From Candidatus Nanoarchaeia archaeon (GTDB taxonomy: Archaea > Nanobdellota > Nanobdellia > Pacearchaeales > GW2011-AR1), in assembly GCA_028713045.1 (NCBI GenBank), contig JAQTOY010000004.1, positions 1-39,199 on the forward strand: a stretch of DNA of 39,199 nt. The letters run 5' to 3'. Of the stretch, positions 12,920-22,467 are shown in pieces (position 1 is the first letter of the stretch; each line of letters begins with the position of its first letter). Position numbers and translations under genes: made by a program. The notes beneath the pieces were generated by a model. It saw nothing but the letters and a program-made list of their open reading frames with translations. It was not told the origin of the DNA and did not search any database.

Positions 12920-14728
12920 ATGGCAACTGAAAAACATAACACTTCTGAAAAATCAAATTTTGAAGCAACTCTTGATGACAGGAAATATCAGAGTCCCGAT
13001 ATCAAGGGAAAAATTCCCGGAGTGACTCCTGAACAGGAAAAAGAAATGGAAAAATCAAGAGCGGAAATTGAGGAATTAAAAAATTACATTCTTGAAAAAG
13101 TTAAATCAACAAGTGCAATTGGAATAATTCCGCCTCAGGCTGCAGTAATTTTTGATGATGAGAATGAATTGACAGAGGAAGAGAGGAAAAGAAAGCCTAT
13201 GCATCTACTCGTCCTGCTTCCTGATGACAAGGAAAAAGAATTTAATTCAATAAGAAATGATATTGTAAAAAAAATTGCAGATAACAAGCAGAATATCTGG
13301 TTGAATCTTTTTTTGGAAAAAGATTTGTGGGAAATCTGTCTGGATTCAAAATATGATGTTGTTGAAGCCATTGGAATGAGCTTTCCTTTGTTTGATAAGG
13401 GTGTTTTAGGTGGACTCCGAGTTGCTCAGATACATAAATCTCTTTGCTTGAAAAAATTTGAGAAATATGTTTATTCTTATGTTGTCTGGGGAAGCATGCC
13501 TAGAGGAAACATGACAAAGACAAGCGACATTGATGTTGGAATAATAATTGATGACACGGATGTAAAAAGAATGCCGCGTTTGGAATTAAAGGAAAAATTA
13601 AGGAATATAATCTATTCTTATGTAATGCAAGCAGAGGAAATGGCTGCCGTCAAGAACAAATTATCTCCTAATATTTATTTACTGACTGAATTCTGGGAAG
13701 GTGTAAAAGATGCAAATCCAATCTTCTATACTTTTTTAAGAGATGGTTTTCCAATATATGACCGAGGAGGATTTTTGCCATGGAAACTTTTATTGAAAAT
13801 GGGAAAAATAAAACCAACTCCAGAATCAATAGATATGTTCATGAGTTATGGGGACAAGACAAAAGAAATTGTAAAAAGAAGATTATTAGATATGGTAATT
13901 GGAGATATTTATTGGGGGGTTCTCACTCCGGCTCAAGCAATGCTTATGCTATATGGACTTCCTCCAACCACTCATAAAGAGACTCCTGCAGAATTCAGAA
14001 GAATCTTTGTTGAAAAAGAAAAGATGATTGAGAAAAAATATGCAGATATATTAGAGGAAATTGTTATCAAATATTACAAAGGATATGAACATGGAAAGAT
14101 AAAAGAAGTTGATGGCAAGACTGTTGATAGATTATTGAAGGATTCAGAAGATTTCCTTGAAAGATTAAGGAAATTAAGAGAGGATATTGAAAAGGAAATC
14201 CAGAAAAAGAATTTTGAGGAAATCTATTCAAATGTTTTTAAGATGCTTAAATCCTTGTTTGGAGAGAAAGCAGAAAATTCATTGATAAATGATTTTGAGA
14301 AAGAGATTGTTGCAAAAGGCAAGGGAAACCCAAAATATATTCATACTTTGAATGAATTATTGCATCTTAAAAAAGAATTAAAGACAAAGAAAATGCCTGG
14401 AAAATACGAGTTTGAAAACCTTAGGAAAGATTCTGTTTATTTGATTGAAGATCTTATTGAATACGCACAAAGAAAGGAACTTGGATTATTGGAAAAAACA
14501 AAAATTATTCTTACTTTCAAAGATAAGCATGCTGAATTATATTTAACAAAACCTGCATTTTTGGTTATTGGCGATAAAGTAAAGAAAATAACAGATAAGA
14601 TTGAAGGTTCTGACTTAAATGAATTAGACAGGGCCCTTGCAGAGCATAAAGGACAGAGATACAAGATTGATAATCATATGATGGATTTATTGAGGGCAGA
14701 GTTAGGTGATTTCGATATAAATCTCTAG
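12920..14728 (+). CDS. nucleotidyltransferase-domain protein with helical C-terminal region
   Basis: VVWGSMPRGNMTKTSDIDVGIIIDD matches GS..RG...SDID-type NTase (pol beta superfamily) motif; 602 aa. Confidence 0.75.
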   Translation: MATEKHNTSEKSNFEATLDDRKYQSPDIKGKIPGVTPEQEKEMEKSRAEIEELKNYILEKVKSTSAIGIIPPQAAVIFDDENELTEEERKRKPMHLLVLLPDDKEKEFNSIRNDIVKKIADNKQNIWLNLFLEKDLWEICLDSKYDVVEAIGMSFPLFDKGVLGGLRVAQIHKSLCLKKFEKYVYSYVVWGSMPRGNMTKTSDIDVGIIIDDTDVKRMPRLELKEKLRNIIYSYVMQAEEMAAVKNKLSPNIYLLTEFWEGVKDANPIFYTFLRDGFPIYDRGGFLPWKLLLKMGKIKPTPESIDMFMSYGDKTKEIVKRRLLDMVIGDIYWGVLTPAQAMLMLYGLPPTTHKETPAEFRRIFVEKEKMIEKKYADILEEIVIKYYKGYEHGKIKEVDGKTVDRLLKDSEDFLERLRKLREDIEKEIQKKNFEEIYSNVFKMLKSLFGEKAENSLINDFEKEIVAKGKGNPKYIHTLNELLHLKKELKTKKMPGKYEFENLRKDSVYLIEDLIEYAQRKELGLLEKTKIILTFKDKHAELYLTKPAFLVIGDKVKKITDKIEGSDLNELDRALAEHKGQRYKIDNHMMDLLRAELGDFDINL

Positions 14729-14856
14729 ATTTATATCGAACATTAAAAAACCTCTGAATGTTTTTTAATACTTTGATATTAACTTGTAATTAGAATCATA
14801 TAGATTTTAACTAAATTTCTTGCCTGTTTCATTAACTTTCAAAATTATTATTTATT

Positions 14857-14890
14857 ATTAATGTTATTCAGAATAAGTAAGGCGTGTTTG
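14857..14890 (+). repeat. dispersed intergenic family, copy C (degenerate)
   Basis: TTAATGTTATTCAGAATAAGTAAGGCGTGTTTG. Confidence 0.3.
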
Positions 14891-14933
14891 ATAATGTTTG
14901 TTGTTAAAACAAATAACTTAATTTTGTATACTT

Positions 14934-15491
14934 TTATCTATTAATGGCGACAGTTTGCCTTTGCAAAGAATTTCCCGTGCAATAATCATAAGCTCTTGAA
15001 AGAATATTCTTTCCAGGAGGGATATCATCTGCCCGCATGATGTAAAAAGATAAGGCTCTTAAACCATTACCAAAAGCTACTGAATAACTGCCTAATGAAC
15101 CTAATTCTTGCTTGGCATTATATACTTCTGAAGATGGATGAGACATATTGGCAGCTAACAAATTACTTAAAGAACAAAAACTAAAAAAATGACCATAGAC
15201 AACATTTTCAAGATCATATCCATAATTTCTTCTTGCTCTTGCATTTCTCGCTCTCCCTTCATCTGCTTCTTGATCTTTAAAAGAGTTCCAGTTTATTTGA
15301 GTTAATTTTGTAGAGACTGCAATCATTATGGCACCTAGAATAGGAGTCATACAAAACCCTCCGCTTACTTCAAAAATAGGTGCAGTTCCATTAAGAATCC
15401 TCGCCAAGTCTGTTTTAGTTCCTCCAGTTAAGTAATTCCAAGAATAAACTAGTCCATTGATGCCTCTCATTAGAAAATCATCAAGTCCCAT
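14934..15491 (-). CDS. hypothetical protein
   Basis: 185 aa, one candidate TM (FCMTPILGAIMIAVST); 11 bp downstream of the 15503-15916 gene. Confidence 0.5.
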   Translation of the reverse strand: MGLDDFLMRGINGLVYSWNYLTGGTKTDLARILNGTAPIFEVSGGFCMTPILGAIMIAVSTKLTQINWNSFKDQEADEGRARNARARRNYGYDLENVVYGHFFSFCSLSNLLAANMSHPSSEVYNAKQELGSLGSYSVAFGNGLRALSFYIMRADDIPPGKNILSRAYDYCTGNSLQRQTVAINR

Positions 15492-15502
15492 TTTTATAGA
15501 AA

Positions 15503-15916
15503 TCAGTTACTTTTTGGTTTAGCTTGTGCTTCTTTTGTCCTTTTTGCTCTTTCAGATTCTATTCTTGTTTCAATATCTACTCGTCTTGAACGCCAATCAT
15601 TTTTTTTATTTTGCAGATCTAATTCTTCCAACGTCCTTACACTTCTAAAAGAAGTTCCCTCTTGATTATCTGCGCTTAAAAGTTCAGTCCTTCCATCGCT
15701 CATTGTTGCTCTTGCAACAGGATTTTCACCATAATCACTCATATTGTAAATCTGTACTGAAGTTGGATAAGGAGGTAAATCTATTTTTTCTACAGAATCA
15801 CGGCGTCCACAACTGGAAAAAATTGCCCCTCCAACTAAGAAAGAAGCTACGCCAGTAATTATATGCGCTTTATAATCCTCTAAACTTCCCAATAAACCTC
15901 TATAAGCTTTAGCCAT
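15503..15916 (-). CDS. membrane-anchored hypothetical protein
   Basis: 137 aa with TM/lipobox-like IITGVASFLVGGAIFSSCG. Confidence 0.5.
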   Translation of the reverse strand: MAKAYRGLLGSLEDYKAHIITGVASFLVGGAIFSSCGRRDSVEKIDLPPYPTSVQIYNMSDYGENPVARATMSDGRTELLSADNQEGTSFRSVRTLEELDLQNKKNDWRSRRVDIETRIESERAKRTKEAQAKPKSN

Positions 15917-15963
15917 ATTATTTTTGATTTATATTTGTTTAAAAATATTATTATAATTAAGTA

Positions 15964-16011
15964 TCATTAATGTTTATGCAGAATTTGTTGTTAGGACAAG
16001 ATTTTTGAGCG
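15964..16011 (+). repeat. dispersed intergenic family, copy D
   Basis: CATTAATGTTTATGCAGAATTTGTTGTTAGGACAAGATTTTTG. Confidence 0.45.
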
Positions 16012-16118
16012 AGTATTAAAAATTTTATTGCTATCTTCTTAACTTAACTTGTATAACATTTATTAACGAATTAATATTGGACGAAAAGATTTTAATATAC
16101 AATTCTTTTAATTAATCT

Positions 16119-17135
16119 ATGAAAAAGAAAAGAGGAACTCCAAAAAGAACAAATTGGAAAAGAAGTCTTGGAATTGTATTATTATTTGTTGGAATTGGAT
16201 TTAGTTTCACAAGCAAAACCCTTACTGGAGCAGTCATTGGTTTAAGTGCTTTGAATCTCTTGGGAGTTTTTGGAATCTTAAGTTTTATTGCAGGTTTGAT
16301 TATTTTGTATTCGGCTACTCTTGAAGAAAGGACCGAGGGGATTGATGAAATTGTTGGAGAGGCGGAACATCTAATAAATGAGCAGAGACAAAAATTTAGA
16401 GCAAATCCTGCGTATGTTATCGGATTAGAGGATATTGAAAGAAAGTTATATGCTGATGTTGATGAGTATCATAGAGTTGAAACAAAGGGTGATAGCGGAT
16501 TGAGAAAAAAAATGTTAAAGAGATTAAGAAGAAGAGTAGATGGATTGAGAAGACGAGCTGAAACTTTTTTTGAACTTCCCAGACATGTTAAACATGATAA
16601 ACAAACTCATGAATCTCTTGTTGTTGATCTTCCAGATCAGTCTTTGTATGAATATGTTCCATTACAAGGTAAAAAAACCAAGATGGTTGAATTAGATGTT
16701 GTTCATTATACAGATAATCCTGCTTATTCTAATATAAAACGGGCTTTTGAAAGAGGCGAAGATGATGTAATGAAAAATGATCTCTCTGGATGGACTTATT
16801 TTGTTGCAGAGTCTCTTCCAGAAGGTTTGCCTATAAAGGAAGCCCGAAGAATTTTGGGAACTGGATTGCAGGACTATAGTGGAAAACAACAGGTTAGAAA
16901 CCCTAAGTATGAGATTAGATTTAAGATAAAAGTTCCAAAAGAAAGAGTTTTATTAAAAGATGAAAAATATACCCTCTGGGGTCATGGTCCCTTACCAGTA
17001 TTACCCGTAAGAAAATATGCTATTGCTGGAGGGATATCAAGAAAAGATATAGTTAGTGTTCCTGATGGAAGAAAGTACTTTTTTAAGGGCGCAGAATATG
17101 CTTCTTCTGGAGAAGAAAGATGGGCAAAATCTTAA
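16119..17135 (+). CDS. membrane protein with C-terminal HYD1-like (putative ADP-ribosyltransferase fold) domain
   Basis: Two N-terminal TM helices, charged linker, then VVHYTDNPAYSNIKRAF..GWTYFVAESLPEGLPIKEARRILGTGLQDY..YEIRFKIKVPKERVLL. Confidence 0.5.
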   Translation: MKKKRGTPKRTNWKRSLGIVLLFVGIGFSFTSKTLTGAVIGLSALNLLGVFGILSFIAGLIILYSATLEERTEGIDEIVGEAEHLINEQRQKFRANPAYVIGLEDIERKLYADVDEYHRVETKGDSGLRKKMLKRLRRRVDGLRRRAETFFELPRHVKHDKQTHESLVVDLPDQSLYEYVPLQGKKTKMVELDVVHYTDNPAYSNIKRAFERGEDDVMKNDLSGWTYFVAESLPEGLPIKEARRILGTGLQDYSGKQQVRNPKYEIRFKIKVPKERVLLKDEKYTLWGHGPLPVLPVRKYAIAGGISRKDIVSVPDGRKYFFKGAEYASSGEERWAKS

Positions 17136-17932
17136 TGTTCTTCAATAAATTCTCTTAAACGAATTCTTGCATTAGGATTTGTTGCTTCAGAGGCTAGAAT
17201 TTCTGCTTCTCGAATCATCCTTTCTCTTTCAGAATCGGTTCTTAAATCTCTGCTATATTCTTTTAATGCTGCTACAACTTCATCACCAGATTGATAGGAA
17301 GGGGAATCAAGCAGAGCAGTTAATTCTTGTGAAATTCTTGGTTGGCTTCTTGGATGATAAAGATGGTCTTTTTTTCCTGGAAAGGTTTGCTTTACTGGAA
17401 AAGTTAAAGAACCTTGTTCCAAAGTTTGAACATAATGTAGAGTTCTTGGAGGAATTCTTAAGATCTGTCCGGGAGAAAGTTCAACAATCTGGTAATTCGT
17501 ATCCTCTTCAACAGGCCTTAAATTAACAAAACTACTTCCACCTAATTGAACAATAGATTCCTCTGTTGTATGATAATGTTCATAAGTCCTCTCTCCAGAT
17601 GGCAAATATTGAACAAGGGCTACATGATTTAATCCATTTGCAAGAAAAAATGTTTTAGCAAAATTTTTTGTGCCGGATTCTGGCTCTAGTTTTCTAGGAT
17701 TATTTCTACCTCTAAAAAAATTCGGATTTAAAAAAACAGTTCCTCTTAAATCATCTTCTGCAAGAGCAACACTTCTCGTAAGTACCTCTCTTCCACAAGA
17801 AGTTAAATCTCTACGTGTATAGGCTACTAATTCAAAATCTCCTAGGCCCAATACTCGTAATCCCTTTTTATTTTCAGTGTATAATGAATCATGCAAAGAG
17901 GTATCAAGTGATATCGAAGGTAAACTTCTCAT
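17132..17932 (-). CDS. cupin-fold protein
   Basis: EHYHTTEESIVQLGGSSFVNLRP and LSPGQILRIPPRTLHYVQ match the two cupin motifs. Confidence 0.7.
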   Translation of the reverse strand: MRSLPSISLDTSLHDSLYTENKKGLRVLGLGDFELVAYTRRDLTSCGREVLTRSVALAEDDLRGTVFLNPNFFRGRNNPRKLEPESGTKNFAKTFFLANGLNHVALVQYLPSGERTYEHYHTTEESIVQLGGSSFVNLRPVEEDTNYQIVELSPGQILRIPPRTLHYVQTLEQGSLTFPVKQTFPGKKDHLYHPRSQPRISQELTALLDSPSYQSGDEVVAALKEYSRDLRTDSERERMIREAEILASEATNPNARIRLREFIEEH

Positions 17933-18122
17933 AAAGATATTTCAAAAATCTTCTTATTTAAACATTCTTTTAAATATTATTTATTGGACAGTGACTAAAA
18001 TAAATATATTATAAAATACCTAGTAATTTAATATAGATATTAAAAATCTTGCCGAATTTTTTTAGATTTTATTCTTCGATAGCTTTTTAAAGGTATTTTT
18101 CTAAGAGATTTAAAGCTTATAG

Positions 18123-18265: not shown

Positions 18266-18523
18266 ATGAAAGGAAAAGTTATTCAATTTAGAAGAAGTTT
18301 GAAAAGAATACATGAAAAGCATTTCATCTTAGATGTGGATGCAGATTCAAAAGAAAAAGCTGCAAAATTTGCAGGAAAAGAGGTCATCTGGACTTCGCCT
18401 GCTGGAAAGAAGATTCATGGAAAAATTTCAGCTTCACATGGAAACAAAGGGCTTGTAAGAGCAATATTTGAAAAAGGTTTGCCTGGGCAGGCAAGAAATA
18501 CTGAGGTGGAAATAAAAAATTAA
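18266..18523 (+). CDS. rpl35ae: archaeal/eukaryotic-type ribosomal protein L35Ae
   Basis: MKGKVIQFRRSLKRIHEKHFILDVD..AGKEVIWTSPAGKKIHGKISASHGNKGLVRAIFEKGLPGQA. Confidence 0.85.
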   Translation: MKGKVIQFRRSLKRIHEKHFILDVDADSKEKAAKFAGKEVIWTSPAGKKIHGKISASHGNKGLVRAIFEKGLPGQARNTEVEIKN

Positions 18524-18735: not shown

Positions 18736-19287
18736 ATGGTAGTTGTAAGAAAAGCATTGGCATATTCGAAAAGAAAACCTGTTGTAAATACTCGAAGGTC
18801 TAAGATTCAGCAATTGAGCTATGTAAAGATGGTTCCATCGCAAAAAATTGTCAAATTTTTTATGGGAGACATAAAGGGTTTTAATGATGGAAAATACAAT
18901 ATAAGGATTGACATCATAAGCCTGGAAAATGTCCAAATAAGAGATTTATCTTTGGAAGCTACAAGACAATCTTTGCACAAGGATTTTTCAGTTGATTTTC
19001 CAAATAGCAGTTATTATCTCAGATGCAATGCCTATCCTCATAATATTTTAAGAAACAACAGAGTTTATTCTGGAGGAAGCAAAGGAGAAAGAATCCAGAC
19101 AGGAATGTCAAAAAGTTTTGGAAGTCCTGAAGGAAGGGCTGCAGTAATTAAAGCAGGAAAATCTGTTTTCACTGCATATTTCAATGGAGAGAATAATATT
19201 CCAAAAGCAAGGGCTATCTGCAAGAAAACAACTCCAAAACTGCCTTGTGCAACAAAGATTGTTGCCACAATCCTAAAGAAAGCTTAG
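18736..19287 (+). CDS. rpl10e: ribosomal protein L10e (L16/uL16 family)
   Basis: YYLRCNAYPHNILRNNRVYSGGSKGERIQTGMSKSFGSPEGRAAVIKAGKSVFTA matches archaeal L10e. Confidence 0.85.
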   Translation: MVVVRKALAYSKRKPVVNTRRSKIQQLSYVKMVPSQKIVKFFMGDIKGFNDGKYNIRIDIISLENVQIRDLSLEATRQSLHKDFSVDFPNSSYYLRCNAYPHNILRNNRVYSGGSKGERIQTGMSKSFGSPEGRAAVIKAGKSVFTAYFNGENNIPKARAICKKTTPKLPCATKIVATILKKA

Positions 19288-19335: not shown

Positions 19336-22300
19336 ATGGAAAAAAATGGTGAGAAGAAAGATAGCGATGCATATATAAAATGGTTTTCTGAGCTTTCTAA
19401 CCAGGATATTAAGATTGCTGGAGGCAAGGGTGCAAGTCTTGCTGAAATGTATAATCATAAATTTCCAGTTCCACCTGGTTTTGTTATAACTGCACAGGCC
19501 TTTGATTATTTCTTAAAAAAAAATAAGATAAACGAAAAAATAAGGGAAATCATAGAAAGCATTGAAACTGAGGACACTTCGGAATTGGATAAGAAATCTA
19601 AGGAGATAAGATCCTTGGTTGAAAGTCAGGAAATGCCTGAGGATTTAAAAAGAGAAGTTCTTGAAAATTATCATATTTTAGGAACTGAAAAAATAGATAA
19701 AACTGGAATTTCTAAAGATGCTTTGAGTCTTTTAAAAAATTCTTATGAACCGGTATTTGTTTCTGTAAGGAGTTCCGCAACAGCAGAAGATTTGGCAGAT
19801 GCAAGTTTTGCAGGACAGCAGGAAAGTTTTCTTAATGTCAAAGGGGACAGAAGCCTTATGGAGAATATTAAGAGATGTTTTTCTTCTTTGTTTACTCCGA
19901 GGGCGATTTATTACAGGCATAAAAAAGGTTTTGACAAGACAAATGTTCTTTTGGCGGTTGTCATCCAAAGAATGGTTGATTCTGAAAAATCTGGAGTCAT
20001 CTTTTCAAAAGATCCCACAAATCAGACTAAGAACATCATAATAGAAGCAGTTTATGGCTTGGGAGAAGGAATTGTTTCTGGAAGGATAAATCCCGACAAT
20101 TATTCAATTTCCAATGATCTGGAAATAAAAAATGTAAAAATTGGGGATAAAAAAATAGCAATCACAAGAGATTCTTCTGGAAGAAATACGATTGTTAAAT
20201 TAAATCCTGAGAAGAGCAAGTCAAGGGTTCTCACCAATGGGAAACTTATAGAATTGGCTAACTATGCTTTAAGACTAGAAGAGCATTATAAAAAACCACA
20301 GGACATTGAATTTGCAATTGAAGAAGACAAGATTTATATTGTTCAATCAAGGCCTATAACAACTCTTGGTGAAAAGAAGGTACAACGGGAGATTTCTGGA
20401 AAAGTTTTGTTAGAGGGGCAGGGTGCAAGTCCTGGCATTGGAGTTGGTGTTGTAAGAATAATAAAAGATTTGAAGGACTTAGATAAAATAAGAAAAGGGG
20501 ATGTTCTTGTGACTGAGATGACGAACCCTGACATGGTTGTTAGCATGCAAAAATCAGCAGCTATTGTAACAGATGAAGGAGGATTGACTTCGCATGCTGC
20601 AATTGTTTCAAGAGAAATGGGAATCCCTGCTGTAATCGGAACTGGAACTGCGACTGCGGTTCTGCAAGATGGAGTTAAGATTACTGTTGATGGTTCAAAT
20701 GGAAAAGTTTACGAAGGAGAAGTCGCTGAAGTCAAGTTAGCTGAAGTCAAGCCTATTGTCAAAACAGAAAAAATCAAAATAAAACTTATCCTGGATTTGC
20801 CGGAATTTGTTGAAAGAGCAGCTCAGTCTGAAGCAGATTCTGTTGGATTATTAAGATTAGAAGGTATAATCGCCAGTTCGGGAACACATCCTCTTGGATA
20901 TGAAAAAGAAAACAAACTTCAGGAGTATGAAGAACTTTTAAGAAAAGGTGTTGAAAAAATTGCATCTCATTTTGATTCCATTTGGGTAAGGACCAGCGAT
21001 ATAAGAACTGATGAATTTGATTTATTGAAAGGAGCCCCTGAGAAAGAACTTAATCCGATGCTTGGCTTTCATGGAATAAGATTTTCACTTAAACATCCAA
21101 AGATTTTAGAAGCGGAGTTAATGGCTATCTCTAAAGTTGCTGAAAAACATCCACATAAAAAATTCGGTGTAATGGTTCCTCAGCTCATTTCAATTGAAGA
21201 GGTTGTTGAAGCAAAAAAACATTTTGAAAAGCATAAAACGCACAACATGGTATTTGGAGTTATGATAGAAACTCCTTCTTCTGTACAGATTATTGAAGAT
21301 ATCTGCAAAGAGGGGGTAAATTTTATCTCCTTTGGGACGAATGATTTGACTCAATTCACCTTGGCCTTGGATAGGGGTAATGAACATGTTCAATATCTTT
21401 ATAATGAGATGCATCCTGCGATTTTTTCACAGATAAAAAAAGTTATTGAAACATGTAAAAAATATGGCGTTGAAACAAGCATATGCGGACAGGCAGGAAG
21501 TAAAAAGGAAATGGCTGAATTCTTGTTCAAGAATGGAATAAGTTCAATTTCTGTTAATGCAGATGCTGCCCATGATATTTCTATATTGATTAAACAACTG
21601 GAAGAACAAACTTTGGAAGAGGATAGGTTGAAAGATGAGGAAAGATTAAAAGAGGAAGAAAGGATGGAAAAATCAAGATTAAAAGAAGAGGAGGAAGAAA
21701 GAGAAAGGTTAAGAGAATTGGAAGTAAAGAGATTAAGAGAAGAAGAAAGATTAAGTGATGAGCAAAGGAGAAAGAAAGAGAGATTTCAAGAAGAAATGTT
21801 GAGAGAAGAGGAAAAATTCAAAGAAGAGAAGGAAAAAAGAGAGCAAGAACGGTTAGAATATGAAAGAATAAAAGAGGAAAGAAGAAAAGAAAGAGAAAGA
21901 TTTGAAGAAGAAGAAAGAATTGAGAGAGAAAGATTAAAGGAATTGGAAAAAGAAAGAGAAAGATTAGAGAAATTAAAGTTTGAAAAAGAACAGGCTCTAG
22001 ATGACAGCGATTCTATAGAGGAGATTAATGAAGATAAAAATAGTTTCATTAATGAAGATTCCCATGAATTCGAATCTGACAATTATGTTGAATATGATGA
22101 TGGAAAAATTTTAGACAAAGAGAATATAAAGATTATCGCAGAATTAGAAGAGGAGACAAGCTTATCTTCTGATGAGAATTCAATAATTGCTAGATTTGAT
22201 AATCTAGATGACATTAAAGAAAAATCAGAGAAAATCCAGCATGAGGTTTGGCATGAAAATCAGAAAGAATTGGAAAGAGAAAGAAAAATTGAAGAAGGGA

Positions 22301-22467
22301 TTGAGGTTGAAGAAATTGATAGTTTCGATGGTGAAGATGATCAATCTGCAAACAAATTTATCAATATCTTTGATGAAGGTAAGGGTAAATCAGACAATAA
22401 ACCTGAAGAATCCAAGAGAAAGGATTCTAAAAAAGATTATAGTTGGTATGATAATGAATATGGGTAG
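19336..22467 (+). CDS. ppsA: phosphoenolpyruvate synthase with about 280-aa charged C-terminal extension
   Basis: PPDK N-terminal GGKGASLAEM, swivelling TSHAAIVSREMGIPAVIG, C-terminal SFGTNDLTQFTLALDRGN and SICGQAG; then E/R/K-rich helix. Confidence 0.9.
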   Translation: MEKNGEKKDSDAYIKWFSELSNQDIKIAGGKGASLAEMYNHKFPVPPGFVITAQAFDYFLKKNKINEKIREIIESIETEDTSELDKKSKEIRSLVESQEMPEDLKREVLENYHILGTEKIDKTGISKDALSLLKNSYEPVFVSVRSSATAEDLADASFAGQQESFLNVKGDRSLMENIKRCFSSLFTPRAIYYRHKKGFDKTNVLLAVVIQRMVDSEKSGVIFSKDPTNQTKNIIIEAVYGLGEGIVSGRINPDNYSISNDLEIKNVKIGDKKIAITRDSSGRNTIVKLNPEKSKSRVLTNGKLIELANYALRLEEHYKKPQDIEFAIEEDKIYIVQSRPITTLGEKKVQREISGKVLLEGQGASPGIGVGVVRIIKDLKDLDKIRKGDVLVTEMTNPDMVVSMQKSAAIVTDEGGLTSHAAIVSREMGIPAVIGTGTATAVLQDGVKITVDGSNGKVYEGEVAEVKLAEVKPIVKTEKIKIKLILDLPEFVERAAQSEADSVGLLRLEGIIASSGTHPLGYEKENKLQEYEELLRKGVEKIASHFDSIWVRTSDIRTDEFDLLKGAPEKELNPMLGFHGIRFSLKHPKILEAELMAISKVAEKHPHKKFGVMVPQLISIEEVVEAKKHFEKHKTHNMVFGVMIETPSSVQIIEDICKEGVNFISFGTNDLTQFTLALDRGNEHVQYLYNEMHPAIFSQIKKVIETCKKYGVETSICGQAGSKKEMAEFLFKNGISSISVNADAAHDISILIKQLEEQTLEEDRLKDEERLKEEERMEKSRLKEEEEERERLRELEVKRLREEERLSDEQRRKKERFQEEMLREEEKFKEEKEKREQERLEYERIKEERRKERERFEEEERIERERLKELEKERERLEKLKFEKEQALDDSDSIEEINEDKNSFINEDSHEFESDNYVEYDDGKILDKENIKIIAELEEETSLSSDENSIIARFDNLDDIKEKSEKIQHEVWHENQKELERERKIEEGIEVEEIDSFDGEDDQSANKFINIFDEGKGKSDNKPEESKRKDSKKDYSWYDNEYG

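Follow-up and report, generated by a model that had tools for sequence, protein, structure and literature searches.

Background

Bacterial polymorphic toxin systems join a constant N-terminus to interchangeable, toxin-like C-termini, with adjacent partner genes that co-vary with the C-terminus and exchange at a fixed site (PMC3482391). The same properties were found around a gene at positions 16119–17135 of a 39,199-nucleotide stretch of DNA from a Candidatus Nanoarchaeia archaeon (contig JAQTOY010000004.1; the whole stretch is called the window here), several of the C-termini being recognised as toxin-like through weak profiles. This gene is probably one allele of a polymorphic, membrane-anchored system of predicted toxin/immunity-like function in small-genome archaea. 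Besides being archaeal, the system differs from its bacterial counterparts in that the partner genes are convergent on the opposite strand, rather than downstream on the same strand, and in that the N-terminus is a short anchor of two transmembrane (TM) helices without a family match, rather than a known trafficking module. In the polymorphic-toxin screen of 2012, genes were treated as one operon only if they ran in the same direction on one strand (PMC3482391), and a convergent layout would therefore have been passed over.

Some C-termini of the family also resemble the toxins of type II toxin-antitoxin (TA) modules (VapC/PIN, HicA, YoeB). The present proteins differ from these in being membrane-anchored, with a convergent rather than operonic partner, and no antitoxin-type DNA-binding partner was seen among the Pfam matches of the partners. 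In pore-forming colicins, the immunity gene lies on the opposite strand. This is also true of some pyocins (PMC5358913). The present system resembles such bacteriocins in that the candidate immunity gene follows the toxin-like gene on the opposite strand, where its regulation would be separate from that of the toxin; however, bacteriocins are released toxins, whereas the partners here look soluble and several are enzyme-like, and no sequence relation to the present family was found. Archaeal polymorphic toxins, a further likeness, were reportedly surveyed by Makarova et al. in 2019 as predicted conflict systems. In the literature compared, which excluded that survey, no paper containing the motif string or describing such a system was found.

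A shared anchor with many C-termini

The N-terminal anchor module was represented by a profile of 62 positions (A1). With a threshold of E ≤ 1e-5, matches occurred in 66 of 181 genomes of the same taxonomic family and in 7 of 137 others across the phylum, while the window's genome (0.96 Mb), whose small size and gene content suggest a DPANN archaeon, contained a single copy. The window protein itself matched with E = 4e-21, which is circular since it was a seed member; non-seed members matched with E = 1.9e-15, 3.7e-14 and 4e-13. The consensus was KR..GI....ITGAVIG...., and the motif between the helices was mostly [IL]TG[AN]V[IV]G. This constant two-helix anchor was fused to many unrelated C-termini, the proteins differing completely beyond the motif. 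These C-termini included DUF218 (E = 4e-17), SLT transglycosylase (E = 1.3e-14), PIN-like (PIN_4, E = 4.4e-4, with three invariant aspartates in alignment A5), YoeB-like (profile against PDB, E = 2.6e-4), DUF4258-like (E = 0.0066) and HicA-like domains (E = 0.03), as well as a PRTase-like domain recognised by eye and types without an assigned family. Several of these assignments are weak when taken singly, the toxin nature of several depending on weak profiles, and the HicA-like and PIN-like group profiles produced no more than weak matches against PDB.

In the window, the open reading frame (ORF) at 16119–17135 began with ATG and encoded 338 aa with zero internal stops. A previous reading of the sequence alone (the sequence-only reading) had described two N-terminal TM helices, a charged linker and a series of motifs. 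All of these were present: the strings VVHYTDNPAYSNIKRAF, WTYFVAESLPEG, ARRILGTGLQDY, YEIRFKIKVPKERVLL and HGPLPVLPVRKYAI were located in the product, while a single-sequence model had residues 13–72 as two hydrophobic helices and the linker as helical up to about residue 150. That reading had also proposed a membrane-tethered effector, for which there was good support, as the anchor is common to many different toxin-like C-termini. The gene is considered real because its C-terminal domain was conserved in the genome of another taxonomic family, and its context archaeal because genes for L35Ae and L10e-type ribosomal proteins lay 1–2 kb downstream, with PEP synthase beyond. Mean charges among anchored proteins were positive before the first helix, with few K/R in the loop and many K/R after the second; this favours an N-in/C-in topology, which would expose the motif outside and leave the C-terminal domain cytoplasmic.

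Convergent partner genes

A partner was defined, using one gene-finding rule, as a convergent gene with its stop between -60 and +10 nt. Such partners were found for 23 of 41 N-terminally anchored genes. Among the remaining genes of these loci, which served as controls, the count was only 37 of 297 (12.5%; Fisher p = 2e-9). The stops usually overlapped or abutted, many at exactly -4 nt. A looser first count had given 24 of 41 for N-terminally anchored genes against 1 of 18 where the module was at the C-terminus (p = 1.3e-4); these p-values are indicative, because locus pairs are not phylogenetically independent. In the window, the stop codon of the anchored gene overlapped that of the minus-strand ORF 17132–17932 by four bases, the palindrome TTAA, just as the sequence-only reading had it for a convergent cupin gene.

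The family of the partner followed that of the C-terminus. Homology between partners was detectable in 10 of 25 pairs of loci with homologous C-termini, compared with 1 of 275 non-homologous pairs, and the single exception (L072/L119) concerned a common chromosomal neighbour that was found in several other loci. Covariation was seen among HicA-like loci (L092, L104, L108 and L118), TPSD-type loci (L087, L103 and L121), PIN-like loci (L109 and L114), the pair L076/L110, and between the window and L128. L102, which seemed to lack a partner, had one of the TPSD type in the same convergent orientation, but at a greater distance of about 370 nt. Pfam matches to partners included HEPN (1e-6), RlaP nucleotidyltransferase (6e-24) and metallophosphatase (2e-10).

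The RlaP-type partner was convergent to a DUF4258-like anchored protein (L101, 3501–4100). A possible function of this pair would be to cleave RNA and, through the partner, to counter the damage by repair.

Exchange at a fixed chromosomal site

Comparison with the nearest relative (genome G013, locus L158) showed that both genes of the pair had been replaced together, as one block, while their chromosomal site stayed the same. Gene order at this site comprised a nucleotidyltransferase protein, the variable block, L35Ae, L10e and PEP synthase, and the first three flanking genes were 85–88% identical in DNA between the two genomes. In place of the window pair, the block of G013 contained an anchored gene of the PIN-like type, together with an unrelated partner of 175 aa that was also convergent. 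DNA similarity ended with the nucleotidyltransferase gene (14727) and restarted at the start codon of the partner (17929), while the 119 bp at and upstream of the start of the two unrelated partner genes were 78% identical. These boundaries show that the pair was swapped while the upstream region of the partner was kept (Table 1). The site is a preferred one, since G002, G009, G010, G011, G029, G048 and G222 also had anchored genes in the vicinity of L10e or PEP synthase. Given this cassette exchange in the nearest relative and the co-inherited partner gene, the 'domesticated toxin' that had been entertained for the window gene is disfavoured.

Table 1. Coordinates of the anchored gene, its partner and the flanks of the exchange site in the window
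Feature	Position	Strand	Basis
602-aa nucleotidyltransferase-domain protein, constant left flank	12920..14728	+	85% DNA identity in L158
Exchanged block	14729..17928		Without DNA similarity to nearest relative (L158, G013)
338-aa membrane-anchored protein with ART-like C-terminal domain (gene under study)	16119..17135	+	ORF call and translation
Two-TM N-terminal module, TLTGAVIG between helices (profile A1)	16152..16331	+	Profile match
Charged linker, helical	16332..16571	+	Single-sequence model
ART-like C-terminal domain, residues 152-338	16572..17132	+	Comparison with L128 homologue
TTAA, overlapping stop codons of convergent pair	17132..17135		Sequence
266-aa cupin-like protein, candidate immunity/partner	17132..17932	-	Homologue likewise convergent in L128
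Conserved region upstream of partner gene, right exchange boundary	17929..18047		78% identical to L158
Ribosomal protein L35Ae, constant right flank	18266..18523	+	Comparison with L158
Ribosomal protein L10e/L16, constant right flank	18736..19287	+	Comparison with L158
PEP synthase-like protein, constant right flank	19336..22467	+	Comparison with L158

Two other, unassigned genes in the exchanged block (14934–15491 and 15503–15916, minus strand) had no counterpart at this position in G013 and are possible further cargo; the N-terminus of one of them is of lipoprotein-like or membrane type. Elsewhere, a conserved gene of about 465 aa adjoined anchored genes of several C-terminal types (L059, L063, L072, L086, L092, L118, L119 and L172), and its neighbourhood is probably a second exchange site. 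An MNT-HEPN cluster has been reported in DPANN archaea (PMC6393860), to which the nucleotidyltransferase protein on the left flank may belong.

The C-terminal domain and its cupin partner

Among 371 genomes of the phylum, the C-terminal domain of the window protein had a single real homologue (P0004 in L128), belonging to another taxonomic family. The two domains were 36% identical (alignment A3; E = 9e-6 at first match and 8e-17 by phmmer). The homologue in L128 was likewise followed by a convergent cupin gene, 40 nt past its stop, and the two cupins were also 36% identical (E = 3e-36). Strong matches to the cupin were limited to two of the 371 genomes, the same two that contained the ART-like (ADP-ribosyltransferase-like) domain. 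Pfam recognition of the window's cupin was weak, its match to Cupin_2 (E = 0.0015) falling short of the cut-off, although the cupin motifs HxH...E and P...H were intact in both homologues. The sequence-only reading had seen no obvious immunity gene. This is contradicted, the cupin gene opposite the anchored gene being the strongest candidate for such a predicted role.

The sequence-only reading had labelled the C-terminal domain as an ART of the HYD1 type. The published signature of Tox-ART-HYD1 is H,[RK],[FY],[DE] (PMC3482391). Both homologues had H196-Y197-T198, W225, Y227, L246-G-T-G249, K269-I-K-V-P and D310, while R208 of the window domain was aligned with a similar residue, K, in L128. 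The signature order could therefore be traced through H196, R208/K, Y227 and D310 in both, which is weak evidence for an ART because there were two sequences only. The order of residues, and of the blocks pointed out previously, fitted the label. The proposed check against PF15633 did not bear it out: neither homologue matched this or any other Pfam profile up to E = 10, nor did the core alone up to E = 1. Nothing above noise was obtained when the window protein was compared with NCBIfam, PHROGs and PADLOC profiles, PF15633 had no match in the window's own genome, and the genome contigs, viral contigs, plasmids and phages scanned contained no real relative of the domain. AlphaFold models made from one sequence or from two were of too low a quality for use (pLDDT 38.5 with two sequences). 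The strand order of the two-sequence model resembled an ART core with low confidence, and a Foldseek search produced no significant match; the top 12 viral structure matches, none significant, included an RNA 2'-phosphotransferase and a PARP domain, both of the ART fold. The window protein also differs from Tox-ART-HYD1 in having a cupin-like partner, rather than Imm-My6CBD, and in having no known secretion-linked N-terminus. The domain has roughly an even chance of being an ART.

Other candidate relatives were rejected. Weaker matches to the domain (L129–L133, L135, L142 and L143) were dismissed as chance on inspection, and L017 was a synthetase-like protein. PF15633 had two sub-threshold matches across the phylum; one of these (L019; G329:C61, E = 0.004) was an archaeal giant protein, an open frame of 2840 aa with an ART-like stretch, and not a relative.

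Function and alternative explanations

There is about an even chance that these features amount to a previously unrecognised polymorphic toxin/immunity system of small-genome, DPANN-type archaea, in which the two-TM ITGAVIG anchor would present interchangeable toxins, the immunity genes would lie tail-to-tail with overlapping stops and their own retained promoter, both would be swapped as one cassette, and some immunity proteins would be enzymes (cupin, RlaP-type nucleotidyltransferase, phosphatase) and not simple inhibitors. The C-terminal domain would be the toxin, tethered on the inner side of the membrane and, in the window, probably an ART; the cupin protein, whose gene on the opposite strand would have a separate promoter, would neutralise or reverse it. 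Such a promoter would make protection independent of toxin transcription; a toxin held in the cytoplasm needs constant protection, which a separately driven partner gene fits. That several partners are enzyme-like (cupin, RlaP nucleotidyltransferase, HEPN, metallophosphatase) suggests reversal or repair, beyond binding. The anchored toxin may act on other cells, of which close kin or a partner organism are the likeliest; that contact or membrane transfer would deliver it is a guess.

Several observations weigh against this explanation. About half of the anchored genes had no close convergent gene, including those with SLT, DUF218, PRTase-like and most YoeB-like C-termini, and some of the 23 partners counted (L072, L119, and either L106 or L080) are due to chance, because the control rate of 12.5% is not negligible. 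No secretion machinery was identified, and the ART fold was unconfirmed by profile or structure search. The ART-like ORF in L128 starts at the contig end, so that its anchor is unseen, and 40 nt separate it from the cupin gene. To our knowledge, no cupin has an immunity role.

With respect to the domain alone, it is quite possible, at a little under even chances, that it is some other alpha+beta enzyme or a binding domain, in which HYT and LGTG would be family-specific and unconnected with ADP-ribosylation, the cupin being another kind of partner. This is compatible with a polymorphic system. It would explain why neither homologue had a profile match and why the poor model found no significant fold; furthermore, an acidic residue just before the YAI strand, carried by many ARTs, appears to be absent. 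Against it are the signature order that can be traced in both homologues, the predicted strand order, with its low confidence, and the two ART-fold proteins among the viral matches, which were not significant.

At the level of the system, the main alternative is a membrane-tethered TA or abortive infection unit that acts in the producer only. A disturbance of the membrane or cell, such as one caused by a virus, would free the toxin from the cupin, and there would be no delivery. The resemblance of C-termini to TA RNases (PIN, HicA, YoeB), the predicted C-in topology, the patchy distribution of anchored genes and the lack of a secretion signal are all consistent with this. However, it is rather unlikely, given that the partners are not operonic, that those with matches (HEPN, nucleotidyltransferase, phosphatase, cupin) are not DNA-binding, that the SLT member fits a TA unit poorly and that PADLOC gave no significant match. 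It is highly improbable that the anchored proteins are a housekeeping membrane family whose convergent overlaps merely reflect compact genomes. Close convergent neighbours do occur at 12.5% in such genomes, short stand-alone two-TM proteins with the module exist (L004, L006, L007 and L029), and some ordinary secreted proteins (L033 and L040) likewise terminate in the motif; but convergent partners were in four-fold excess over controls and co-varied with the C-terminus, the ART-like/cupin pair recurred across taxonomic families, and alleles were exchanged at a fixed site.

If a polymorphic toxin/immunity system is the true explanation, it would be a weapon-and-immunity system, so far unrecognised, in tiny and poorly studied archaea. 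Little is known of the ways in which ultra-small archaea compete with kin or affect their partner organisms, and a large part of their proteins is unannotated. The shared anchor and the tail-to-tail rule provide a simple means of finding candidate toxin/immunity pairs in these genomes, where such convergent pairs would escape same-strand operon searches.

Further proteins with the anchor motif

Other proteins, some secreted and some cytoplasmic (L033, L040, L014, L041–L045 and several of L069–L100), had the motif [IL]TG[AN]V[IV]G at their C-terminal end, followed by a helix and basic residues; in this archaeal group, it may serve as a signal for sorting or anchoring. The anchored SLT protein (L084, 1957–2940; E = 1.3e-14) occurred in an archaeon expected to lack peptidoglycan, and may be predicted to act on bacteria. 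A further ART-like member (L089, 2337–3080, minus strand) combined an ART-PolyVal-like domain (E = 0.0016) with the C-terminal form of the module. Finally, L031, L090 and L100 combined N-terminal domains that were JAB/MPN-like by eye, that of L100 without a Pfam hit, with the C-terminal form of the anchor.
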